From a virus: a stretch of DNA of 29,681 bases. This document shows, one piece after another, positions 2 through 29,476 of this stretch. Under the pieces are notes generated by a model, which ran no database searches, was not told the DNA's origin, and saw only the letters and a list, made by a program, of their open reading frames with translations. The translations under genes and the position numbers were made by a program. Location: IMG/VR virus record IMGVR_UViG_3300025667_000018, positions 1 to 29,681 of that record; one strand, written 5' to 3'. Position 1 is the first letter of the stretch. Every line of letters starts with the position of its first letter.

Positions 2-745
2 CTAACCGGTATCGCCGCTGGTGCCGCTGGTGCCTATGCTCTCAGGAAAGGCCGCCGGCCTAAACTACCTAAAGGTTACCGACCCCCCCCTTGGCAACCG
101 CGGAAGCCTGTCGCCATAAAGAAACCCATGCCATATCGGCCAAGTGAAGAGCTTACCGGAAACACAAGGCGCAGAGTTTCCGGCAGAAAAGGGGCTAAAA
201 CACGAGCTGCGAATAAAGCAGCTAGAGAGGCTAAATACGCTGGGTACGAAGAACTCAGGAAGACCAATTACAATAAAGCCTTGGCCAAGCGCCGAGGTAC
301 TCCACCGTTGCTATCAGACCATCGTAGGTCCGGCAACAAGGGGTCACGCTTCGATAAATACCGGGCTGCGAACACTAATGCCCAAGGGCGTCAAAAGAAT
401 CTAGTTACAGACCCGAAGACCGGGAAGAAGTACGACACCGCTGGTTGGTCTTATAGTTCCAAAGAGAGATTGACCTACCTCAACGATCAACTCGATGGCG
501 TCTTGGAGATGGCAACGCGCGCGGAAAAGAAGGATGCCAAGACAGCAAAAATGTTAGCCAAGAAACAAGCCAAAATGGCAGGCTACATGGCGAAGAAGGG
601 CGACACTAAACAGGCAGCCGAAGCTCGGTGGTCGAGAAGGCAAATGGGTACATCTGGTTATTGGCTTGGTCCCTGGGGAATGATGGGCAACCTGGGGAAG
701 CAGCAACGGATAGCCGAATACCAAAACCGCAAGGGTAATGGGTAA
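2..745 (+). CDS. Basic Gly/Ala-rich phage protein with internal tag helix, 5' partial
   Basis: The reading frame is open from the window edge, so the true start lies upstream. An ATG at 128 is available but has no clear ribosome site, and the preceding frame codes for a glycine/alanine segment (LTGIAAGAAGAYAL) followed by basic residues, as in other proteins of this window. The product is strongly basic. About halfway, from base 467, it contains RLTYLNDQLDGVLEM followed by EKK. This closely matches the N-terminal helix of the four small genes at 19004-20589. Here the helix is internal, so the gene may be a fusion of two family members or may be processed at that point. The stop overlaps the next gene by 8 bases. 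Function is not recognised; a virion-internal or ejection protein is an inference. Confidence 0.7.
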   Translation, partial: LTGIAAGAAGAYALRKGRRPKLPKGYRPPPWQPRKPVAIKKPMPYRPSEELTGNTRRRVSGRKGAKTRAANKAAREAKYAGYEELRKTNYNKALAKRRGTPPLLSDHRRSGNKGSRFDKYRAANTNAQGRQKNLVTDPKTGKKYDTAGWSYSSKERLTYLNDQLDGVLEMATRAEKKDAKTAKMLAKKQAKMAGYMAKKGDTKQAAEARWSRRQMGTSGYWLGPWGMMGNLGKQQRIAEYQNRKGNG

Positions 746-3562: not shown

Positions 3563-3689
3563 CTTTTCCGTCTCCATAGCGCAACGCATCAATGGCGTCT
3601 ATCATTGTGGTTTTGATTTTCTCCACGATACAAACCCCTGCAACCAGCAAGGTGAGTCGTACCTTCTCTGACTTTGTTAGCTTGTCCAC
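3552..3689 (-). CDS. 45-residue protein, GTG start, missed small gene
   Basis: The GTG start overlaps the stop of the VWA gene by one base (TAGTG). The product runs VDKLTKSEKVRLTLLVAGVC... and ends GDGKDEN. It has a hydrophobic stretch LTLLVAGVCIV, short for a membrane span, followed by a charged helix. The overlap style matches the rest of this operon, which supports real translation. Function is unknown. Confidence 0.5.
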   Translation of the reverse strand: MDKLTKSEKVRLTLLVAGVCIVEKIKTTMIDAIDALRYGDGKDEN

Positions 3690-4378
3690 TATTTCCGTAG
3701 CTGAACCTTAAGCAGTCGTTTCACAAGCTCAAGGAAGGACGTGAACAAGTCATCCGGAGTCGTTCTCGCTATGGCATAATCGAAGTACCGTCGCATTACA
3801 TCAACCTGGCTGAGTGCTCCGCAATACAAGCCCACACAGGATATGCCGTGCTTATTCCACAGTGATGGCTTCAGTGCTTTATCCGCAATGTCTGCATCTG
3901 TGTAACAAGCAACGAGATCAGACTTGGCGAGTACATTTTTGAACTTATCGAACGTCTGGGACAAACCCTCCCTTCCGTGCCAAGCCTGCATGGCTTGCCA
4001 GACTTTTGGTGGTTGTGGCATGGGGACTTGGAATCCGTTGTAACCTGTCCCGTCCGCCCTTGAGTGGCCCGTGCATATGACATTCACATTAGCCGCATTT
4101 GACTCATGTAGGCTCGATAGGATTACGCACATCTGTATCGCCATCTCCATTGGCTCCCCGGACATAGACCCGGAGCAATCAACGATGAACGTGATTGTTG
4201 GCTTACCATCTTCCGTCTTTCCTGTACGGAGGAAGAAGCCGCTATCATCACGCCGGGCAAGAGCACGGATGTTAAGTCTCCCCTTTCTGTGGTTCAACTC
4301 CTTCCCTACTCCGCCTTTCAGCGACTGCTTGAATCCAGATAGGTGACGGTTTATTAGATCGTAATGTAAATCGTACAT
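3689..4378 (-). CDS. VWA-domain protein, CobT C-terminal-like
   Basis: The gene encodes 229 residues. The ATG at 4378 is chosen because it overlaps the upstream stop (TAATG) and has AGGAG at ideal spacing. The von Willebrand A fold is shown by TITFIVDCSGSMSG with the MIDAS residues D67, S69 and S71, and by a later YTDADI likely to give the third metal ligand. The preceding block (LARRDDSGFFLRTG) resembles the linker before the VWA domain in cobaltochelatase subunit CobT. In that family the VWA domain binds a metal ion and a client, and works with a MoxR/CobS-type AAA+ ATPase. Both an ATPase and a CobT N-terminal-like gene lie upstream in this operon, so this is probably the third part of a split CobS/CobT-like machine. 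Client unknown. Confidence 0.85.
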   Translation of the reverse strand: MYDLHYDLINRHLSGFKQSLKGGVGKELNHRKGRLNIRALARRDDSGFFLRTGKTEDGKPTITFIVDCSGSMSGEPMEMAIQMCVILSSLHESNAANVNVICTGHSRADGTGYNGFQVPMPQPPKVWQAMQAWHGREGLSQTFDKFKNVLAKSDLVACYTDADIADKALKPSLWNKHGISCVGLYCGALSQVDVMRRYFDYAIARTTPDDLFTSFLELVKRLLKVQLRK

Positions 4379-5004
4379 TACAGCTCCTGCTTCGCCTCCA
4401 CCGATATCGTAGATGGCTTGCACTTCTCAAGCCCTTCATTCACCTCAAGCGGCAGTGCATTGCGAGCCTCAAAGAAGTCGCTGTTCGGCATGATCTGGGT
4501 TTCCATTGCCCAGCAGTCTCCGAGTTTGTACTTCGCCATTAGCTCGGCCATATCCGCTTGGAACTCCATGTAGTTGTCTTCCGACAGCCTGGTGTTGATC
4601 TTGTCTGCATCGATTTTGATTTGATGAGACTCGTGGTAGTAGTCACCGGCATCGTAGCCCGCGTCCTCCATGACCTTCTCGACCTGTGTCGCAACGGCAT
4701 CCGTCAAAGGATAGCGTCGTGTACTCGGCTTCAGGAGGAGCTTCATTCCATCCCCGAGATCGAGGTAGAATGATCCCAGGCCGCTGGTGAACATCTTCTG
4801 CTTTGCCGCTTGGATGAGATCGACCTTGGCTTGGCTTGCTTTTAACGCATCTGCCGCGCTTTTGGCCTGACGGATCACGGAGTGGAGCTTAACCATCTCG
4901 GCTTGACTTCCGAGGCCCAAGTCCGCTGCAGTGAGCGTCGGTGTATTGCTTTTGCTTTTGGCTTTTGGTTTCTCTGGTACTATGGTTTCTTTACGTGTTA
5001 TCAT
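4378..5004 (-). CDS. Hypothetical protein between VWA and 407-residue genes
   Basis: The gene encodes 208 residues, with AAAGGA before the ATG and a 3-base gap from the upstream stop. The N-terminus is a Lys/Ser/Pro-rich tail. Residues about 35-75 form a long helix (MVKLHSVIRQAKSAADALKAS). They are followed by a mixed alpha/beta part containing YLDLGDGMKLLLKPSTRRYPL and a run of helices rich in Asp, Glu and Lys. No catalytic motif is visible. Its direct coupling to the VWA gene suggests it may be the partner or client of the AAA/VWA system (inference). Confidence 0.7.
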   Translation of the reverse strand: MITRKETIVPEKPKAKSKSNTPTLTAADLGLGSQAEMVKLHSVIRQAKSAADALKASQAKVDLIQAAKQKMFTSGLGSFYLDLGDGMKLLLKPSTRRYPLTDAVATQVEKVMEDAGYDAGDYYHESHQIKIDADKINTRLSEDNYMEFQADMAELMAKYKLGDCWAMETQIMPNSDFFEARNALPLEVNEGLEKCKPSTISVEAKQEL

Positions 5005-10045: not shown

Positions 10046-11116
10046 TTAGTTATCGAACGAGAAGTAGTACGGGGATAACCCGCGATCCCTCAAGTCCTTG
10101 TTTGTTTTGAGTTGAGACTCATCATCCGAGCCTTGTTTCTCGTCATGCTTGCCCTGGATTGTTTCCTTTTTATCCGTGGGCTTTCCTTCTGCTGGCTCAT
10201 CTTTCTGGTAGGCTTCTCCACCGAGTGCATTATCCGCACTAGTGGCAAAGTCACTACCTGGGCCGAATCGAATGCCTTCTCCGCCTTCAGGTGAAGGGAA
10301 GTGCTTCTCCCATTCAATCAATACGGGGAGTAGGCTTTCCGTGGTGGGGTATCGGGCATCATTGCCACGACCGGCAACATTTCGCCAGAACGTGTAAACA
10401 AGATCGATACCCACCTTGTTTCCTGTCTTCTTGGACTCCCAAGGGGTCCGATCTCCTAACCAGCGACTATTGAACTCCTCGAAGACGTATGCCACATTAT
10501 CACCACGTGCTCCGCCTTTCCGGGTTCCCTCTGCCTTAATGAAGGCCAGCATCGTATTGAAGGGGATATCAACGTGTATCTCCTCCCATTTCAGCCAGTT
10601 GAACTTCCGTATGCCGTATGACTCAGACTCAATCCGAGTGCCGTCATAGTGCAAGTCCTTCTTTCCCGCAACAGAGGTTGGCCTTCTTGAGCGATATAGG
10701 CTTTCACCTCGTCCATCCTCAAACAAGTTCATTGTCTGGAATGGCACTTTGGCATCAGCCAGGAGCTTATTCAGGCTAACGAAGTCCCTTGAGGTGTACA
10801 AGCCATGCATGGTTTCATGGTCGTGTACTGCCTTGAGGTACGCTGTTTCCTTTCTGGAGGCTGGGCCTGTCCGGCGCTTTGCAAGGAGATCAGTACGATC
10901 AATGTGACCCGGAAGCCCCTTGAACATCTTGATGGTGTGAACTCCACCATCGAATCCCCAACACGCGGTTTCTGGAGGAGCTTCTTCTGCCCATTCCAGT
11001 ATCGCTGTTGAGTCGAGTGTGCCGGTGGTTCGCTTCCAGTGTTGATCCTTTACGCTCTTTATGCTGGATGCATAAGCCTTGAGCGTCTTGGTTGGGATAG
11101 CAGAAGGTACGCTCAT
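10046..11116 (-). CDS. CobT N-terminal-like HExxH protein
   Basis: The gene encodes 356 residues; its ATG overlaps the ATPase stop as ATGA. The motif H100-E-T-M-H104 is a zinc-type HExxH. It is followed about 26 residues later by NLFEDGRGE, which closely resembles the 'N.LED.R.E' segment of the N-terminal region of cobaltochelatase subunit CobT and related putative metallopeptidases. The C-terminal 90 residues are charged and low-complexity (EGKPTDKKETIQGKHDEKQ), like the acidic linker that joins the CobT N-terminal part to its VWA domain. Here no VWA domain follows; it is a separate gene at 3689-4378. Together with the AAA+ gene upstream this suggests a split CobS/CobT-like chaperone or remodelling complex. 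Protease activity is not proven. Confidence 0.75.
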   Translation of the reverse strand: MSVPSAIPTKTLKAYASSIKSVKDQHWKRTTGTLDSTAILEWAEEAPPETACWGFDGGVHTIKMFKGLPGHIDRTDLLAKRRTGPASRKETAYLKAVHDHETMHGLYTSRDFVSLNKLLADAKVPFQTMNLFEDGRGESLYRSRRPTSVAGKKDLHYDGTRIESESYGIRKFNWLKWEEIHVDIPFNTMLAFIKAEGTRKGGARGDNVAYVFEEFNSRWLGDRTPWESKKTGNKVGIDLVYTFWRNVAGRGNDARYPTTESLLPVLIEWEKHFPSPEGGEGIRFGPGSDFATSADNALGGEAYQKDEPAEGKPTDKKETIQGKHDEKQGSDDESQLKTNKDLRDRGLSPYYFSFDN

Positions 11117-12393
11117 GAGAATACCTTATTCACAAGCTTTACCCACGTTTCCATCTGATCCTGCATAGGCTCTCCATCGTGACCCTCGGCAGAGAACCAC
11201 GCACAGAAGCCCTCTTCCGTCATGTGATCCTTCAGCATGGTATGGGCATCCGCACAAGACCTTGCAGTCGTGAAACCCTCCCCTTGCATGAGGTCAATGG
11301 CGTGCAGGAACTCCCTGATACTGGGTGCTTCATCAAGAAGGCTTTTCTTGACAGCATCCTCCGCGGTTCTCCATAGCTTGGTAAACCGTGTCACCAGATT
11401 TGCTGGAGCACCTATTCCGGCTTCCTTTAGTCGTGGAGACAGGACCGTCTTGATGAGATCGGCATCCGTCTTCACGGGGATTGGCTTGAATCTCGCCTTG
11501 ATCGCCGGGGTGTCCGGTTCACAGTCATACTTGGGACCCACGTTCTGGGTTCCAACTATGGAGATATTTGCCATAGGACAGTGAAGTTCCTCAAGGGTTA
11601 CTTGGGGGTTGCCTTCCTTGTCCTTGCCTGTCGTCAATGGCCTTCCCGTTGGCAACTTCAACCATTCTTCGCCATCCGCCCCGATATAGGGAGATGTGCA
11701 AGTGAGGAATGCTTGTTGTTGCTTCCGTGGCACATTGCCAATTTCGTCTAGTATGACCAATACGGTCTCTCCGTCAGCGGCAGCCTTCCATGCTGTAGCC
11801 AGGGGGCCATCGACGAACAGGAACCCACCGGAGCCATCACCCGAGACCGTTGGGCCACCGATGAAGTCCTTGGCTTCCATGTCCGACATACAAGCAACCT
11901 CAACAACGAGGTCAAACCCGGCATTCTCGCCGAATTTACGTGCTTGGTATGTCTTTGACGTTCCCTTGCTTCCTTTGAGCTTAAGGAATTGCTTCCCTTG
12001 CTTCTTCCGCAAACCTGGTGTGGAATGCTTGAAGAGAGCTTGGGATATTTTCCCTGAAGCCGCCGGCGCTCCTTTGGCGATAACACCAGCCTTCGCTGAC
12101 TTTGCCGCTGGTGCTCCAGCTTTTATCTGTGCATCGAGTACAGCGACCAATTGCTTGGCCATATCCTCGATGTTACCACAAGACATCGACCCGCTAGAGG
12201 ATGGTAGTTCATCCTTTATGCTTTTGGTGATGTCATCGATAGCCGCTTGGGGTATATTAACCTTTAGCGTCTTGATGTGAGACTTGATCACCTCCTGTAT
12301 TTTTGTGGAGGCAACCGCTTTCCCGAGTGCGTCTATGCACTCAGAATCATTCAGTTTTGCGGCGATTTCGCTCGCGTCTAGTTCTATTTTCAT
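11113..12393 (-). CDS. MoxR/CobS-like AAA+ ATPase
   Basis: The gene encodes 426 residues. The first 130 are an N-terminal helical part and an Ala/Lys-rich linker. The AAA+ core follows: Walker A GSKGTSKT (141-148), Walker B VLVILDE (211-217), sensor-1 region SIVGTQN (N284) and a probable arginine finger in IKARF (R301). This set matches the MoxR/CobS branch of AAA+ ATPases, which form rings and act with VWA-domain partners. The Walker A glycine before the lysine is replaced by serine (canonical GxxGxGKT), while the lysine and threonine are kept. The ATPase, the HExxH gene directly coupled to it and the VWA gene downstream probably form one system. The substrate is unknown; cobalt chelation is unlikely in a phage lacking other pathway genes. 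Confidence 0.88.
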   Translation of the reverse strand: MKIELDASEIAAKLNDSECIDALGKAVASTKIQEVIKSHIKTLKVNIPQAAIDDITKSIKDELPSSSGSMSCGNIEDMAKQLVAVLDAQIKAGAPAAKSAKAGVIAKGAPAASGKISQALFKHSTPGLRKKQGKQFLKLKGSKGTSKTYQARKFGENAGFDLVVEVACMSDMEAKDFIGGPTVSGDGSGGFLFVDGPLATAWKAAADGETVLVILDEIGNVPRKQQQAFLTCTSPYIGADGEEWLKLPTGRPLTTGKDKEGNPQVTLEELHCPMANISIVGTQNVGPKYDCEPDTPAIKARFKPIPVKTDADLIKTVLSPRLKEAGIGAPANLVTRFTKLWRTAEDAVKKSLLDEAPSIREFLHAIDLMQGEGFTTARSCADAHTMLKDHMTEEGFCAWFSAEGHDGEPMQDQMETWVKLVNKVFS

Positions 12394-17756: not shown

Positions 17757-18332
17757 ATGTATATGAGTGACCTTAAATGGGCAAAGGGGATCCTGGAGAA
17801 GCTGGATCAGGGAAAAACAGTTAGTCAGGAAGACCTACAGCGGGCTAGTGAGATAGCACTTAATGAAGTCGCGAGTTCGACACCGAAGTTTGCAAAAAAC
17901 CAGACCGAACTAGCGTCTATATTTAAGGTTGATCGCAAGACCATCCAGAGATGGAGGAAAGAAGACGGCTTTCCCAAGGCGGCTACCAACGGGAAATGGG
18001 ATGTCGCGGCCACACGCGCGTGGGTGAAGGACAATAACAAGCTGGATAATATAGGGGACGCGGAGGAAGAGGATTTACATGAGCTAAAGATTCGCCAGTT
18101 GAAGCTAATCTGTGAGAAACTGGAGCATGAGTTATCGGTCAAGAGGGAGGAGTTCACCCTTAACACCGATGTGGAGAGGTGGGTAGCCGGGATGGTTTAT
18201 GAGACAAAAACAATCCTTTTAAGTATCCCCAGTAAGCTTGCTCCACAAATGGCAGGGTTAGACCCCGTGGATGCGGAAGCGCGCCTCAAGGAAGCTATCG
18301 ATGAGGCTTTAAAGCAATTGCATGAGGGTTGA
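17757..18332 (+). CDS. Terminase small subunit, Nu1-like
   Basis: The gene encodes 191 residues. Residues about 49-70 (QTELASIFKVDRKTIQRWRK) form a helix-turn-helix with the 'dGFPKA..NGKWDV' wing and 'AWVKD' tail seen in Nu1-type packaging proteins. A charged coiled-coil region follows (about 105-135), then a C-terminal domain with LNTDVERWVAGMVYETK and IPSKLAPQMAG, as in Nu1/DUF1441-like small terminases. The protein recognises the packaging site on concatemeric DNA and hands it to the large subunit encoded downstream. There is no strong ribosome site; a second ATG lies two codons in. It is the first gene of the plus-strand packaging block. Confidence 0.8.
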   Translation: MYMSDLKWAKGILEKLDQGKTVSQEDLQRASEIALNEVASSTPKFAKNQTELASIFKVDRKTIQRWRKEDGFPKAATNGKWDVAATRAWVKDNNKLDNIGDAEEEDLHELKIRQLKLICEKLEHELSVKREEFTLNTDVERWVAGMVYETKTILLSIPSKLAPQMAGLDPVDAEARLKEAIDEALKQLHEG

Positions 18333-18334
18333 CA
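18328..18334 (+). promoter_or_regulatory. GTTGACA element 21 bases before the ATG at 18349
   Basis: The element overlaps the TGA stop of the small terminase gene. The 21-base spacing to the ATG at 18349 is the same as in the three other cases, and it helped decide that start. Confidence 0.45.
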
Positions 18335-18348
18335 GATTCCGTTATGGT

Positions 18349-18987
18349 ATGTTCGACCAGGAGCCTTTTCATAACAACCCGACCCTTACGCGGTGCATAA
18401 ACTGCAAGTCCAAAGAGATTTGCGATGCCAAAGGTAAGTGTCTGTTAAAGGCAGCGAAAACCTTTGGGGAAAGATACCAGAAGCTACTTATTCTTTTTAG
18501 CGAGTCACCCGCGGGTAACACGAGCGGAAGATATAAGATAGACCCCGAGACCGGGGAGAGGGTGCTGGTGGTTCGGCCGACCAATACGAATATTGTTAAA
18601 AAACAACGAGACTGGCCAACAAGAATCGCGGAGTTACCAAAGAAGGTTCTGGATAAAGTTAAATCACCCCCAGCCCCAACGGAAGCACAACAGATCGCGA
18701 GTCTATCTAAAGTAGAGCGCGACAAACTCGCGGCTGATCTACATCAAAATACACAAGTACCGGATTCTCCTGACCCGGTAGGCAAGGTTCGCCAAACACC
18801 ATTCGGTAAAGAGCAGGGTAAAACTCGCCCCGGTGCAGGTAGGCAACCCCCTGTTAAGATACCCAAGCAGATGCCAACAGGCGAGAGACTGGACAACCTT
18901 ATTACCAGAATCACGGAAAACTCAAATATGAATAGACGTAGGGCAATCGGGTGGCTACGAAAGATGGTTCTACGAAGAGGAGGTTGA
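18349..18987 (+). CDS. Basic protein with Cys cluster, between TerS and the tag genes
   Basis: The gene encodes 212 residues from the ATG at 18349; an in-frame ATG at 18322 overlaps the small terminase gene and has no ribosome site. Near the N-terminus, CINCKSKEICDAKGKCLLKA has four cysteines that could bind zinc. The rest is basic and Pro-rich, with RPGAGRQPPVKIPKQMP and a C-terminal helix NRRRAIGWLRKMVLRRGG. A nucleic-acid-binding role fits the composition and its place in the packaging block, but no family is recognised. Confidence 0.65.
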   Translation: MFDQEPFHNNPTLTRCINCKSKEICDAKGKCLLKAAKTFGERYQKLLILFSESPAGNTSGRYKIDPETGERVLVVRPTNTNIVKKQRDWPTRIAELPKKVLDKVKSPPAPTEAQQIASLSKVERDKLAADLHQNTQVPDSPDPVGKVRQTPFGKEQGKTRPGAGRQPPVKIPKQMPTGERLDNLITRITENSNMNRRRAIGWLRKMVLRRGG

Positions 18988-19003: not shown

Positions 19004-19459
19004 ATGAACGAGCTATCCGAACTGAACCAACGCATAATCGAGTTAGACAATGCGCTCGATGAAGTAATTTTTGCTAGAGCCGAAAACCTTGCTAATGACA
19101 TTGCCTTTGAGGAAGAAAAACGAAGAGGCCGCGCGGGAGCAATCGTTGGAGGCACGGTAGGAGGAGGAGCCGCTCTTGCAGGAGGCGCACTTGGAGGCGC
19201 AGCCTTATACGGTGCGAGGAAGAATCGTTTTGGGCAACCTCGCCAGCGCGGAAATCTAAATCAGACGAACATGGTTAAGCGTTGGCAGAGTAAAGGGCTA
19301 GGCTCTCGGATGAAGCAATCGCTAGGCAATCTAGCGTCAGGTAAGGGACTTGCCAAAAAGGACCCAACTAAATTTTTAAAGTATGGAGCCAAGGGCGCTC
19401 AAGGTGCCGGGAAGTTCATAGGTAAGGGTGTTAAAAACATCGCAAAGCTCTGGAGGTAA
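19004..19459 (+). CDS. Tagged glycine-zipper basic protein 1
   Basis: The gene encodes 151 residues. The start MNELSELNQRIIELDNALDEV carries the shared tag helix (RIIELDNALDEV, then FAR). A second short acidic helix with IAFEEEKRRGR follows, and then a long glycine zipper, GAIVGGTVGGGAALAGGALG, about residues 46-68. The rest is basic and Gly/Lys-rich with no recognisable domain. Glycine zippers pack helices in membranes; basic bodies suit DNA contact. It begins a run of four genes with the same N-terminal helix. An internal head or ejection protein is inferred. Confidence 0.7.
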   Translation: MNELSELNQRIIELDNALDEVIFARAENLANDIAFEEEKRRGRAGAIVGGTVGGGAALAGGALGGAALYGARKNRFGQPRQRGNLNQTNMVKRWQSKGLGSRMKQSLGNLASGKGLAKKDPTKFLKYGAKGAQGAGKFIGKGVKNIAKLWR

Positions 19460-19462
19460 AAA

Positions 19463-19906
19463 ATGGATAGATTACTAGAACTCAATGAGTACATGGATAA
19501 TGTACTGGAATTTGCAAGGGACGAGGAAAAGAAACCTACGCGTCCAATTTCCCGATTTGTGACTAGCCCATGGCTTCCCGCTGCCGGGTTTGGTGCGGCA
19601 GGGGCTGGTGCTGGAGTGAATCAAGCTCATCGGCAATTCCTTGGGAAGGGGGCTTTGAGGCGTATGCCCAATGGTAAACTTCCTAGAAAAGCAAAAGCAG
19701 TCTTGGCCGCCGGCGGTTTAGCGGGCGCAGGCATCATGGGCGGCGCAGGTTATGGAGCAGGCGCGTTGAGGAATGTTATTGCTCGCCGGGGAGAAGAAGG
19801 CCGCATAAACAAGATGCGAAAGAAGAGGGATAGACTTTCTTCCGGTAAACGCCGGGATCGTGTTGAACGTAAAATCGCAAAGAGAGCAGGCCGCTATGCA
19901 GAATAG
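19463..19906 (+). CDS. Tagged glycine-zipper basic protein 2
   Basis: The gene encodes 147 residues with GGAGG before the ATG. The N-terminus MDRLLELNEYMDNVLEFAR is the clearest copy of the shared tag. It is followed by DEEKK and two alanine/glycine zipper segments (PAAGFGAAGAGAGV and AAGGLAGAGIMGGAGYGAGA). The C-terminus is a very basic helix (RRDRVERKIAKRAGR). The body shares no obvious sequence with the preceding gene apart from the tag and the composition. Confidence 0.72.
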   Translation: MDRLLELNEYMDNVLEFARDEEKKPTRPISRFVTSPWLPAAGFGAAGAGAGVNQAHRQFLGKGALRRMPNGKLPRKAKAVLAAGGLAGAGIMGGAGYGAGALRNVIARRGEEGRINKMRKKRDRLSSGKRRDRVERKIAKRAGRYAE

Positions 19907-20228
19907 ACTAATAGAGTTAGATGCATATCTTGATGATGTGCTGGAGTTTACTACTTTCAAATACGTCGCACCGGATGTAAGTAATAAAGAGCCTACCAGA
20001 GATGCTGGAGGGCTTAATGAGCCACAGAAAACACCGGCAAAAGCCAAGGATCAAAAAAAGAAGCCGGCCAAAACCACCGCTGCTGCTGCTCCAAAGAAGA
20101 CTCCTTGGGGCAAGTATGGCAAGTATGGTGCAATTGGTGCTGGTGCTGTAGGATTGGGGTATGGAGCACATCACCTCTATCGTCAGCATAAGCAGAATAG
20201 CCAAAATCGCCAGAGACGTGCATACTAG
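19896..20228 (+). CDS. Tagged basic protein 3
   Basis: The gene encodes 110 residues from the ATG at 19896, chosen because it places the tag MQNRLIELDAYLDDVLEF at the very N-terminus; an upstream ATG at 19860 is also in frame. A Lys/Pro/Ala-rich linker follows (KDQKKKPAKTTAAAAPKK), then one Gly-rich hydrophobic segment (YGAIGAGAVGLGYGAHH) and a basic tail. It overlaps the previous gene by 11 bases. Confidence 0.7.
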   Translation: MQNRLIELDAYLDDVLEFTTFKYVAPDVSNKEPTRDAGGLNEPQKTPAKAKDQKKKPAKTTAAAAPKKTPWGKYGKYGAIGAGAVGLGYGAHHLYRQHKQNSQNRQRRAY

Positions 20229-20589
20229 ACTGCTAGAGCTAAGTGAGTCCCTCGATTCACTGCTTGAGTTTAAAGGTCTCCATCCCGGCCAGGTTCTAGT
20301 TGAAAAGGGTTTCGGGAGGCGTCGCATCAAGGTTCCCAGTTGGTACAAAAAGGGATACCGCATTAAGGGTAAAGATGGCAAAATAATCTCCCCGCGCGTA
20401 CGGGATTACCTCGGTGGTGGGCGCATTAATACTTTTACAGGGGAACGCATCAGGCGAGACCCCAAAGAAGCGGCCAAGCTTATCGGGAGACGTGTTGGGA
20501 AACATGTTGGTAAGCACAAGGTTGCGTACACGGGACTTGCGGGAATAGGAGCGGGAGCCTACGTCAATAGGCCACGTAAGGACGATTGA
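20218..20589 (+). CDS. Tagged basic protein 4, GTG start
   Basis: The gene encodes 123 residues. The GTG at 20218 is preferred over an ATG at 20161 because it overlaps the preceding stop by 11 bases, as in the previous pair, and gives the tag VHTRLLELSESLDSLLEF at the N-terminus. The body is basic (GFGRRRIKVPSWYKKGYRIK) and ends with a short alanine/glycine segment, AYTGLAGIGAGAYV. Its stop overlaps the large terminase start. Confidence 0.68.
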   Translation: MHTRLLELSESLDSLLEFKGLHPGQVLVEKGFGRRRIKVPSWYKKGYRIKGKDGKIISPRVRDYLGGGRINTFTGERIRRDPKEAAKLIGRRVGKHVGKHKVAYTGLAGIGAGAYVNRPRKDD

Positions 20590-22316
20590 ATATCGTAGAG
20601 CAGGCCGCGCGCGAGGCGTGGAAACCCGCCGATAGGCGCGCTCCATGGGAATGGGCAGAGGATAATTTCAAGGTGGCAGTTAGCCCCTTTCCCGGGATGT
20701 GGCGTTCAGACAATGCCCCGTGGGTTAGAAAGTTCATGGAATCCTTTGCGGATAACCGGGTTCGCTCAATTTCCATAATGTGTGCGGCCCAGAGCGCGAA
20801 GACCGAGACCATGATAGCCTGCTTATGCTGGCTTATATCCGAAGATCCTGGTCCATGTATGTGGGTTACCTCAAACGAGGATGAGGCATTAAAGTTCGCC
20901 AAGGAGCGCATGATGCCTTCCTTAAAAGCTTGCCCCCCTGTTGCCCAGTTGATGCCAAAGAGTAGGGAACTAGCAAAGGCCAAAGAGGTATTCTTTCCGC
21001 ATATGACGCTTGAGTTGGTTGGATCAAATGCTCCCTCCAAGCTTCAATCCAAACCCAGACGATGGCTCTTAATGGATGAGGTTCGCAATTGGCCTCCAGG
21101 GGCATTACCGATGGTTCTAAAAAGAACCCGAACCTACTGGAATGCTCGACAGGTGGTAATGTCCACGCCCGCGGACGAACACGATTCAGTTCACCAGGAG
21201 TATCTAAAGGGAAACCAGCAGGTCTGGAAGGTAGCTTGCCCGAAGTGCAAAGAGAAGCACGAGCTTGATTGGGAATTTGTAAAGTGGGATACAAATGAAA
21301 AGACCCGGCCATCAGGGAAGTATGATTTTGATAACCTATCCAAGACGATACGGATGGAATGTCCCGCCTGTGGTTACGAGACTTATGATACCCCACCTGA
21401 GAGACGCAGGCTTACCAAGGGTGATTGGGTCGAGACGAACCCGGAGGCATCCAGACAACGCAAGAGCTTCACGTGGTCCGCGCTTTTACCGACATGGGTA
21501 AGATGGGCTGAGTTGGTTGAGGAATTTCTTTCAGCAAAGAAAGCATTATCATGGGGTGATCCCCAGCCACTAAAGACTTTTATAACCGAATCCTTGGGAC
21601 AACCCTGGCAAGACCGTCTTCGGTATGGTGACCAGGGTAATTGGTCGGAAGACCGAAAGGGTACTTTCCGTATGCTGGATAAATGGCCAAAAGAGGATCG
21701 TCGGTTCCTTGGGGTTGATGTCCAGAAGGATCATCTTTTCTATGTATGCCGGGCTTTCGGTAAGGAGGGGATGTCTCGATTGATCGACTACGGTAAGATA
21801 GCAGACTTCTCATCACTGCGTGAAAAGATCCAGGAACTAGGGGTGGATGATGATGATGTGGTGGTGGACTCAGGGTATAATGCCACGAGTATTTACAACG
21901 AAGTCACAAAATCCGGGTACTCATGGAAGCCGATGAAGGGCGATGACTTCCAATACTTCGTGGTGGATGGTGTTCGCCAGCCATACAAGGATACGTTGGT
22001 TGATCCAGCTATGGGTACTTCTCTCCAGGGGCAAGTACGCCCGGTGAGACTTTTTGTTTTCTCAAACCCCGCGATCAAGGACTTACTTTCGGAGTACACC
22101 CGGGGCATTGGCCCCTCCTGGGAGATACCAGAAAACGTAACAATAGATTACGTTCAACAAATGTCCGCGGAGCACCGTGAGGAGATACAGGATGCCTACG
22201 GAAAGATTACCTATAAGTGGGTAAATAAACCCCGCCGACCAAATCACTACTGGGACTGCGAGTGCATGATTATGGTGGCGGGACTTGTTACGGGAGCTAT
22301 AGGCGTCACCACCTGA
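20586..22316 (+). CDS. Terminase large subunit, GpA-like
   Basis: The gene encodes 576 residues. It starts at TTG, which overlaps the previous stop as TTGA, with AAGGA upstream; no ATG lies near. ATPase part: a Walker A-like AAQSAKT (about 67-73, with alanine in place of the usual glycine) and Walker B RWLLMDE (159-165), then the coupling segment VMSTPADEHDSVHQEY. A zinc-ribbon insertion has C218, C221, C259 and C262. The nuclease part begins near GVDVQKD (D378), with VVVDSGYN and a C-terminal NHYWDCECM, as in lambda GpA-type terminases. It cuts concatemers and pumps DNA into the prohead with the portal. Length is slightly below lambda GpA (641). Confidence 0.93.
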   Translation: MNIVEQAAREAWKPADRRAPWEWAEDNFKVAVSPFPGMWRSDNAPWVRKFMESFADNRVRSISIMCAAQSAKTETMIACLCWLISEDPGPCMWVTSNEDEALKFAKERMMPSLKACPPVAQLMPKSRELAKAKEVFFPHMTLELVGSNAPSKLQSKPRRWLLMDEVRNWPPGALPMVLKRTRTYWNARQVVMSTPADEHDSVHQEYLKGNQQVWKVACPKCKEKHELDWEFVKWDTNEKTRPSGKYDFDNLSKTIRMECPACGYETYDTPPERRRLTKGDWVETNPEASRQRKSFTWSALLPTWVRWAELVEEFLSAKKALSWGDPQPLKTFITESLGQPWQDRLRYGDQGNWSEDRKGTFRMLDKWPKEDRRFLGVDVQKDHLFYVCRAFGKEGMSRLIDYGKIADFSSLREKIQELGVDDDDVVVDSGYNATSIYNEVTKSGYSWKPMKGDDFQYFVVDGVRQPYKDTLVDPAMGTSLQGQVRPVRLFVFSNPAIKDLLSEYTRGIGPSWEIPENVTIDYVQQMSAEHREEIQDAYGKITYKWVNKPRRPNHYWDCECMIMVAGLVTGAIGVTT

Positions 22317-23392: not shown

Positions 23393-23665
23393 ATGAGCGT
23401 AGCGAATTGGAAAGTAATCTATAGAGATTACACGAGTGAAGAGTTAGATGAAGAACTTGCAACCCTAAAAAAGGAGGCAAAAAATATGTACCTAGCTCAA
23501 TCGGTTGGAAACAAATCCTATCAGCGCAGTATTACATCCGTTGAGGAGAGACTCCGGGCAATCATGGAGATTCGCCGGGAGAGTGGAGATTCATATAATG
23601 ATCCAACTTATGTTGACTTTGATGGGGCATCTCAAATTGAATGGGGGAATAGAAATAGAGCATGA
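23393..23665 (+). CDS. gpW-like head-tail joining protein
   Basis: The gene encodes 90 residues from the ATG at 23393; an in-frame ATG at 23378 would overlap the divergent gene's start. The sequence is YTSEELDEELATLKKEAKNM, then a short beta hairpin region SYQRSITSVEERLRAIMEI. This follows the helix-hairpin-helix order of lambda gpW, including the 'tSv.....i..Le' second helix. It lies between the large terminase and portal as W does in lambda. gpW plugs the filled head and provides the tail attachment surface. The stop overlaps the portal ATG. Confidence 0.72.
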   Translation: MSVANWKVIYRDYTSEELDEELATLKKEAKNMYLAQSVGNKSYQRSITSVEERLRAIMEIRRESGDSYNDPTYVDFDGASQIEWGNRNRA

Positions 23666-25206
23666 AACAAAAAGACCCATCATTTCTGGATAAAACAATT
23701 GCCTTCATCTCCCCGGAGTGGGGCTTAAAGAGAAAGTTCCACTCTGATCGTCTGGAGTTTGCATATGATGCGGCTCGGCAGACACGAGCACACGCAAGCG
23801 CGGGGCATTCCCTTTCAACCGCAGCATCTGAATCTCTCGCCAACCAGCGTGATCGAGTAAAGATGATGTGGGAGGCACGAAACCTTGTGCAGAATTACTC
23901 TTTCTTTAAGAGCGTGCTACTAAAGGAGTCGATGTATGTATGTGGCTCTATTCGCTATCAAGCAAACACGGGCGAACCTGCCATTGATCAAGCTTATGAG
24001 GAATACTTCAATGAGTGGCAGACGAAGTGCGACATAACAGGCCGATCCCCTTTCCGTCACCTTATCCAGCTCGGACACATGGGAATGCGTCGTGATGGTG
24101 ATGCCGGGTGGGTAATGGTTACCCAGGGCAAAGAGATTCGGCTTCAGGCAATTGAGTCAGATCGTATTGGTAACCCAAATGAACTCGGGAAGAAACAGGA
24201 GAATTATATTGGTGGCATAACCATCAATGACCTTGGGCAGCCCACCTCCTACAAGATTTTCAAGAGAACTCTCCACGGGCAATACAAAGACCCACATGAT
24301 GTTCCCGCACCCAACTTCGTTCACTACTTCGATCCTCTACGGACAGATCAGTATCGTGGAATAACCGCGTTTGAGACCGCAATTCCTCACGCAAAGGATT
24401 TGTATGAACTTCTTAAGATGGAGAAGCTGGCGGTCAAATGGGGTTCCGCGCACGCAGGGGTTATTACAAAGAATGACCAAGGCCCGGATAAGTGGACCTC
24501 GAAAGTTCCCGTGGATGCCACAGGCAAAGCTGCGGGTGACTTGAAGCTAGAAAAGATGGAGGCTGGCAAGATTTTACGCCTACAGCCAGGTGACCAGGTG
24601 AATATGTTCCCGACCAACAGTCGCCCTAGCGCGACCTTTAATGGGTTCATAACCACGCTTGTCAGAGAGATGGCCAATGGCCTAAACCTCCCCTACGCCT
24701 TCGTTTGGGACATGAGTGCATTCGGTGGAGCAACTGCTCGTCTTGAGGTACAGCAAGCCCAACGCGCATTTCAACGCCACCAACAACTCCTAAAGGATCA
24801 AGTCCTTAACCGGGTCAAAGATGCGGTTCTTGGAAGAGCAATAGCATTTCGCGATCTCCCGGCACACGCCAATTACAAGAAGGGTCGCTGGCAGTTTAAC
24901 TCCCAGATAACCGCAGACCTTGGCCATGAAGTTCAGGCTAACATAAATCTGCAACAGGCTGGGCTGAAGACATCTGAGTCAATATACGGAGAGATGGGTC
25001 TCGATTTCCAAGAGGAGAGCGAGAAGATAGCCAAGGAGCTTTCCCATCTACAGGAACTTGCCAAGAAATATGGAATCCCGGTTTCGATACTTGCCCAGCG
25101 ACTACAAGGGGCGGATGAAGCCATAATGCAATATCGCCAAATGCTTGAGCAACAAGAGCAAGAGCAGCAGCAGATAGAGCAACAAAGCGTACAGCAAACT
25201 CAATAA
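23662..25206 (+). CDS. Portal protein, lambda gpB-like
   Basis: The gene encodes 514 residues (lambda gpB 533) and overlaps the previous gene as ATGA. Family features include LGHMGMRRDGDAGWVMV and LQAIESDRIGNPNE. The beta block GGITINDLGQPTSYKIF is followed by VHYFDPLRTDQYRGITAFE, and then by the long helical part with GLNLPYAFVWDMSAFGGATA. The dodecameric portal forms the DNA entry channel at one head vertex and binds the terminase. The C-terminus is glutamine-rich (EQQEQEQQQIEQQSVQQTQ), a flexible tail that is unusual in degree but probably harmless to the fold. Confidence 0.93.
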   Translation: MKQKDPSFLDKTIAFISPEWGLKRKFHSDRLEFAYDAARQTRAHASAGHSLSTAASESLANQRDRVKMMWEARNLVQNYSFFKSVLLKESMYVCGSIRYQANTGEPAIDQAYEEYFNEWQTKCDITGRSPFRHLIQLGHMGMRRDGDAGWVMVTQGKEIRLQAIESDRIGNPNELGKKQENYIGGITINDLGQPTSYKIFKRTLHGQYKDPHDVPAPNFVHYFDPLRTDQYRGITAFETAIPHAKDLYELLKMEKLAVKWGSAHAGVITKNDQGPDKWTSKVPVDATGKAAGDLKLEKMEAGKILRLQPGDQVNMFPTNSRPSATFNGFITTLVREMANGLNLPYAFVWDMSAFGGATARLEVQQAQRAFQRHQQLLKDQVLNRVKDAVLGRAIAFRDLPAHANYKKGRWQFNSQITADLGHEVQANINLQQAGLKTSESIYGEMGLDFQEESEKIAKELSHLQELAKKYGIPVSILAQRLQGADEAIMQYRQMLEQQEQEQQQIEQQSVQQTQ

Positions 25207-28957: not shown

Positions 28958-29476
28958 ATGCCACAAGTAGGAAACAAGCACTACCCATATACGCCAAAAG
29001 GCATAGCCGCGGCCAAAAGGGAAAAAGAAAAGCGCGATAAAGCGATCAGCAAGGCTGGTGGAGCCGCTGGAGCGGCCGCATTGGGTGGCGCGTACTGGAC
29101 GGCGGCACGCGACAGACAGATAGGCATTGATGCAGATGCAGAGATAAAGGCTTACGGGACACATTTGACGGATGAATCCAAAAAGGCATACAAGAGCCAC
29201 CAGAAGCAAATGGGTGACAATGCCAGGGAATATGATGCGTGGGAGAAGAACGAAGGGAAGGCCCATGGCAACAGAGGCAACAAGAAGGCAAAGTACAAAC
29301 AGTTCGTCCAAGAGAGGGATAATGTTAACATCGATCCCTCCAAGAGGGATATCGAAAAGGTAACCCGAGGAAAATGGGTGGATGGTAAATTTAAGCCAAG
29401 CACAATTCGCAACAAACTTTTACATGGCACTCTAGGCTATGTTAGATTACCCCGATTACTCACAAGGGGCCGATGA
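28958..29476 (+). CDS. Basic protein with PYTPKG motif and glycine-zipper segment
   Basis: The gene encodes 172 residues starting two bases after the previous stop. The N-terminus NKHYPYTPKGIAAAKRE contains a Y-P-Y-T-x-K-G motif that I associate with small phage structural-region proteins, though without a known function. It is followed by an Ala/Gly segment (AGGAAGAAALGGAYWTAA) and a long basic helical body ending in RGR. It sits directly before the probable decoration gene. Role unknown. Confidence 0.65.
   Translation: MPQVGNKHYPYTPKGIAAAKREKEKRDKAISKAGGAAGAAALGGAYWTAARDRQIGIDADAEIKAYGTHLTDESKKAYKSHQKQMGDNAREYDAWEKNEGKAHGNRGNKKAKYKQFVQERDNVNIDPSKRDIEKVTRGKWVDGKFKPSTIRNKLLHGTLGYVRLPRLLTRGR

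Follow-up and report, generated by a model that had tools for sequence, protein, structure and literature searches.

Why should several neighboring virus genes encode proteins that begin alike and then differ? The question is raised by a 29,681-base IMG/VR virus record (the window, by which we mean this whole stretch of DNA), a fragment that ends before the protease and major capsid genes and in which four adjacent genes, g1 to g4, lie between the small and large terminase genes, directly upstream of the latter (Table 1). The original prediction held that the four products carry a common N-terminal helix, that this tag sorts cargo proteins into the head, and that V-L-E or L-L-E at its end could be a cleavage site. 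All four tags quoted for positions 19004-20589 read exactly as given, at or near the N-terminus, and the consensus (RLIELxxxLDxVLEF) is common to all four genes, except that in g1 the closing E-F is missing and A replaces the conserved Glu. For g4, the in-frame GTG at 20218 is taken as the likely start, because the tag then falls at residue 4, as in g3. The predicted set of neighboring genes was confirmed but turned out to be larger, with a fifth tagged gene, g5, near the left end of the window, apart from g1-g4, and with a second cluster in relatives.

Table 1. Tagged genes of the window, their tags and their neighbors, in window positions.
Feature	Coordinates	Strand	Remarks
g5, fifth tagged basic protein, cluster 2	128..745	+	aligns, from its tag to its end, with tagged protein four of G001, blastp 7e-20
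g5 internal tag RLTYLNDQLDGVLEM	467..511	+	residue 114 of ORF 128-745
Terminase small subunit	17757..18332	+	phrog_57, 2e-25
Neighbor gene	18322..18987	+	shortened tag (RLTELNEKLEFA, RLIELNRKLEFA) on the G004 and L016 counterparts
g1, tagged basic protein, 151 aa	19004..19459	+	ORF; tag RIIELDNALDEVIFARAENLANDIAF followed by a hydrophobic, Gly/Ala-rich stretch and a basic tail
g1 tag RIIELDNALDEVIF	19031..19072	+	starts at residue 10
g2, tagged basic protein, 147 aa	19463..19906	+	ORF from ATG 19463; G001 orthologue, blastp 5e-24
g2 tag RLLELNEYMDNVLEF	19469..19513	+	starts at residue 3
g3, tagged basic protein, 110 aa	19896..20228	+	from ATG 19896; G001 orthologue, blastp 3e-26
g3 tag RLIELDAYLDDVLEF	19905..19949	+	starts at residue 4
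g4, tagged basic protein	20218..20589	+	likely GTG start 20218; longest ORF from ATG 20161
g4 tag RLLELSESLDSLLEF	20227..20271	+	residue 4 from GTG 20218; residue 23 from ATG 20161
Terminase large subunit, GpA type	20586..22316	+	phrog_15, 4e-84
Portal protein	23662..25206	+	phrog_21, 2e-54

The likeness of the tags is not a product of chance. When profiles were built from any three of the four, the held-out tag (E 1e-4 to 0.12) ranked first among approximately 400 six-frame segments from outside the training set, and the tag of g5 was next-ranked in most of these runs. Codons differ in 41 of the 72 codon pairs that specify identical residues, and mean nucleotide identity is 55%; identical residues are thus mostly written with different codons, and the likeness is therefore maintained at the level of the protein sequence. 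Such synonymous turnover speaks against a reading of g1-g4 as old tandem duplicates with diverged bodies, in which the common N-terminus is a relic without a sorting function. That the genes adjoin and vary in copy number would agree with duplication, but the tag is conserved while the bodies are not (in the g1 family, A3, with 10 members, invariant residues are confined to the first 35 positions, and mean pairwise identity is 59% in the tag region and 27% in the body), and it both precedes unrelated modules and occurs in a separate cluster, as described below. We regard a relic of this kind as highly improbable.

The bodies had been described as different, basic and Gly-rich. Basic they are, with pI values of 9.9-11.3 for g1-g4 as compared to a median of 5.7 in relative G001, but a Gly/Ala-rich hydrophobic stretch, scored by a cut-off of our own, is present in only three of the four; across the window and G001, seven of ten tagged proteins have the stretch and the others are without one. 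An AF2 model of g1 places a helix at residues 3-43, with confidence restricted to the tag helix (pLDDT 70-83 in the tag, <50 in the body), and the helix is amphipathic, with acidic residues at its polar positions (RLIxLDxxLDxVL). The hydrophobic stretches and strongly basic tails would also suit membrane or host-takeover proteins that are made in the infected cell and are absent from virions, the tag serving as an amphipathic membrane-binding helix. For such proteins, however, acidic polar positions followed by E-F would be an odd choice, and the hydrophobic stretch is missing from some tagged members; moreover, the genes are grouped with terminase and portal, and modules of the tagged family recur in a cyanophage protein named as a virion protein (see below). 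A role of this sort is accordingly improbable.

The distribution of the tag was traced in 17 related contigs identified by a search with the large terminase (TerL; 68-87% identical). Wherever the gene order is retained and the contig reaches far enough upstream, a relative carries one to four tagged genes between its terminase genes. In G005 and G010, unlike in the window, the terminase is inverted, such that TerL lies on the strand opposite the tagged genes and portal, and the tagged genes are retained; in G011 and G012, at 52% TerL identity, the small terminase gene overlaps TerL and tagged genes are absent. The second cluster is located after a C5-methyltransferase gene; G001 ends within it, with MNRLIELNEYLDQVL, and in G002 and G003 it holds shorter tag forms such as KLSALDSLLEFG. 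From its tag onward, g5 corresponds to an entire protein of G001, the fourth tagged one, encoded beside TerL, so that tag and body appear to have moved as one unit. The N-terminal position of the tag, as predicted, holds for g1-g4, but in g5 and some relatives the tag is internal (residue 99 in G004).

A profile search for sets of neighboring tagged genes, which the original prediction had proposed, was run with the 14-residue helix and set 27 distinct tags apart from all other matches by a clear gap in score, from about 14 related phages and all in the two clusters; in the relatives searched, no tag was found outside these clusters or in other gene classes. A hydrophobic residue followed by E-F occurs in or just after the helix in 22 of the 27 tags, versus 4-7% of random 28-residue windows, and is most often placed 4, 8, 11 or 15 residues past the second Asp, near whole helical turns. 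Counting this motif over whole proteomes was dropped as a line of evidence, enrichment being seen in G002 only, and the portal N-terminus LEFAYDAA was rejected as a tag: it is taken to be ordinary portal sequence, as untagged relatives read LTEFRYEGA at that place.

Several other features of the window are recorded here. The - strand genes at 10046-12393 and 3689-4423 include a MoxR/CobS-like AAA ATPase gene (phrog_249/16448 matches), together with genes for a neighboring protein that bears the motif HETMHGLYT and for a protein of von Willebrand type that contains D-x-S-G-S; G001, G004 and G010 have comparable sets. A second short N-terminal module, MPQ(V/I)GNKKYPYTxxG (phrog_33179), is common to the window (28958-29476), L016 (9516) and G004 (8364), and precedes an internal tag copy in the latter two. 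Positions 738-1679 encode a Gly- and Lys-rich protein with KPGVGFGPGNDGRVG-type repeats and no family match.

Directly before the major capsid gene (phrog_1005), the relatives encode a protein of 361-371 residues, for which the predicted model begins with a β-rich domain and continues, by way of a helix and an acidic stretch, into a long coil and a helix at the C-terminus. Comparison of the G001 model, which has a mean pLDDT of 68 (about 80 in the domain), against the PDB with Foldseek gave T4 gp21 as the sole significant match (E 2.8e-5), and a second aligner (VIA) placed gp21 at Z 13.8, with an rmsd of 3.2 over 142 residues, followed by herpesvirus proteases at 6.4. Fold comparison alone produced this match, as a profile of the protein found no relative among PDB sequences. 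The residues NH...GLS...DPAANPDG are conserved in 15 members, and NH and G-x-S, which hold the candidate active-site His and Ser, are invariant in family A4 and retained in distant members as well, a statement about the family's own sequences rather than about a residue-by-residue superposition on gp21. From the gp21 fold and the retained NH, GxS and DPAANPDG, we therefore take the modeled protein to combine a prohead protease with a scaffold. Such an enzyme is attributed to the window phage from its relatives rather than from the window record, in which Peptidase_S77, the Pfam family of T4 gp21, had no match; the controls were likewise unmatched.

The tail of the protease contains a conserved EG(T/S)FEFxxQ (FQF in G002) that is close to tags such as DSFEFYAQ, and the G011 and G012 proteases are shorter, without the acidic insert and the FEF part. 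Some family members appear to be fused to a capsid-like protein, as in L147 and L149, where a single ORF of 683-846 residues would span both. The coil of the G001 protease includes ERLDGVEEF, which resembles the tag. Near the protease and capsid genes there are also paralogues that start with MNHN(N/D/G)VISLP (G001 17370, 22194 and 23674; G005 30404, 32719 and 34208); these are probably head decoration proteins, and none bears the tag.

These features recall the capsid-targeting sequence (CTS) of T4, MKTYQEFIAEA, which is likewise a brief signal at the N-terminus of several proteins that are small, basic and otherwise different (IPI, IPII, IPIII and Alt). The tag is unrelated to the CTS in sequence and forms a longer helix; it is distributed over two gene clusters, is internal in some proteins, and has Phe after the Glu, whereas the known T4 cut is glutamyl-alanyl. 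The GpA-type terminase and phrog_1005 capsid protein of the tagged family are also not T4-like. The two systems nonetheless agree in their weakly conserved cargo genes, and a gp21-type protease (here by fold, in relative G001) and a Glu at the possible cut would be further likenesses. Because the tag would work like the CTS but does not match it in sequence, we class it as a variant of capsid-targeting signals. In T4, the CTS of these basic, weakly conserved internal proteins docks on the core, and gp21 cuts after L/I-x-E (PMC9026906).

Other phages offer looser parallels. Ejection-protein propeptides of giant phages (SPN3US gp53/gp54, phiKZ, 201phi2-1) place identical 15-residue N-termini on diverged proteins and are cut at sites such as SLE-13 and TFE-275 (PMC5694885), but they mostly exceed 100 residues and belong to giant genomes, and they are likened to the tag by description rather than by a sequence match. 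The N-terminal 30 residues of P1 DarB direct that protein to the capsid (PMC9024508); the Dar proteins have no shared consensus, whereas here one tag is common to a whole gene set.

A closer connection to T4-like phages lies in the cargo itself, and is drawn from three relatives (G002, G003 and G005), not from the window. A module that reads AWTRKEGK...NKSLRAWNC, module (a), follows the tag in G003 (LLEF-GSA) and G005 (ALEF-SSA), and a shortened tag in G002 (IFEL-G). It is found in 80 viral loci, nearly all from other phages, and in T4-like contigs often stands behind starts that resemble the T4 CTS (MKTFSQFITE, MISFKEFINE, MRANEFITE). Such starts occur on 18 of 53 module ORFs versus 19 of 725 other ORFs, with a p value of 3e-13 that is optimistic, as the pattern was written after the matches had been viewed; the grouping of records by tag type was also post hoc. 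By that grouping, CTS-type T4-like records have a Glu ≤5 residues before module (a) (SLSE-DWQK, FINE-SAAW, VSE-GAAW), records with short untagged forms usually have none, and the tagged family reads LLEF-GSAAW at the same junction. Run against 59 loci that encode many CTS-like proteins, the tag profile itself had no match.

Together with a second module, (b), module (a) constitutes GC119 of T4-like marine phages (phrog_727). The GC119 proteins resemble the tagged family in these modules, in the Glu just before module (a) and, in cyanophages, in a gene that adjoins the large terminase; they differ in that their starts are of the T4-CTS type (MKTFxxFIxE, MRAxEFIxE) and in that a single long protein often unites the modules, which in the tagged family are distributed among separate proteins. 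In cyanophage S-SCSM1, the module (a)+(b) gene precedes terL by a few genes and has been given the name 'virion protein' by authors who examined CsCl-purified virions by mass spectrometry (PMC9602691). Marine virus AG-345-E15, whose module (a) match covers 97% of the query, was rejected as a relative, being a T4-like phage. In L050-L057, L060, L061 and L063, module (a) follows another shared N-terminus, MGDISLRGxGRAxxxGG, possibly a further address tag.

The head-sorting role originally predicted for the tag thus draws indirect support from the gp21-fold protease, the exchange of modules, the absence of the tag where the cluster is absent and the lack of matches outside the clusters, and we consider it quite probable that the tag is a capsid-targeting signal that acts like the T4 CTS. 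Cleavage at VLE or LLE, as judged from the hydrophobic-E-F of 22 tags and from the Glu before module (a) in T4-like phages, is plausible, if somewhat less likely than head-sorting: the LLE of g4 fits L/I-x-E, but g2 and g3 read V at the position for which gp21 favors L/I, g1 is without the Glu, and the Phe after the Glu, the internal tags and the FQF in the G002 protease tail also argue against the motif. A helix that docks permanently on scaffold, portal or terminase, the tagged proteins being unclipped parts of head assembly or structure, would accommodate g1 as well as the E-F that closes internal tags and repeats within one protein (LMEF-MYDSSGKG, L006/L011). It would also agree with the position of the cluster, which the two terminase genes flank in the window and in most relatives with a complete upstream region. 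It sits less well with the gp21-fold protease of the relatives and with the Glu that T4-like phages, too, have just before the shared module; the bodies, moreover, vary freely over one to four genes per genome, unlike structural parts. We judge a permanent docking helix to be unlikely.

The most far-reaching reading, with a probability of roughly 0.6, is that of a clipping capsid-targeting tag that is unrelated in sequence to that of T4 and that labels changing cargo in two clusters, some of it exchanged with T4-like phages, whose modules bear their own tag. In the mechanism we favor for a CTS-like signal, cargo proteins that are small, basic and in many cases rich in Gly and Ala would be docked on the prohead core by the amphipathic, acidic-faced helix ending in hydrophobic-E-F; the likeliest docking site is the coiled-coil scaffold portion of the gp21-like protein. 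As the head matures, the protease would probably cut after the Glu of V-L-E or L-L-E to release the cargo, with FARDEEK, FTTFK and FKGLHPGQVLVEK as putative new N-termini, and the freed proteins would be packed with the DNA and then ejected. The Gly/Ala-rich hydrophobic stretch may act at the host membrane, for which SPN3US gp47, an ejection protein with a transmembrane helix, provides a precedent (PMC5694885).

Shared capsid-targeting tags on gene sets are already well documented in T4-like phages. The newness of the present tag is judged by the collections and literature searched: the G001 protease and window g1 and g2 had no match among 50,697 phage records, the tag family and protease were not found in 84,980 bacterial and archaeal genomes, and no paper on RLIELxxxLDxVLEF was found in the literature searched. 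The phages that carry it are a family of marine bacterial viruses that place one label on several small, basic, different proteins, probably for head loading. If this is true, a second, sequence-unrelated tag in phages with a GpA-type terminase and a phrog_1005 capsid protein would mean that tags for head loading have more than one origin. It would also offer a sequence by which virion cargo of unassigned function could be recognized in metagenomes. Because modules are swapped between tag types, the idea can be put to the test, and the swapping hints that marine phages exchange head cargo from a common pool.
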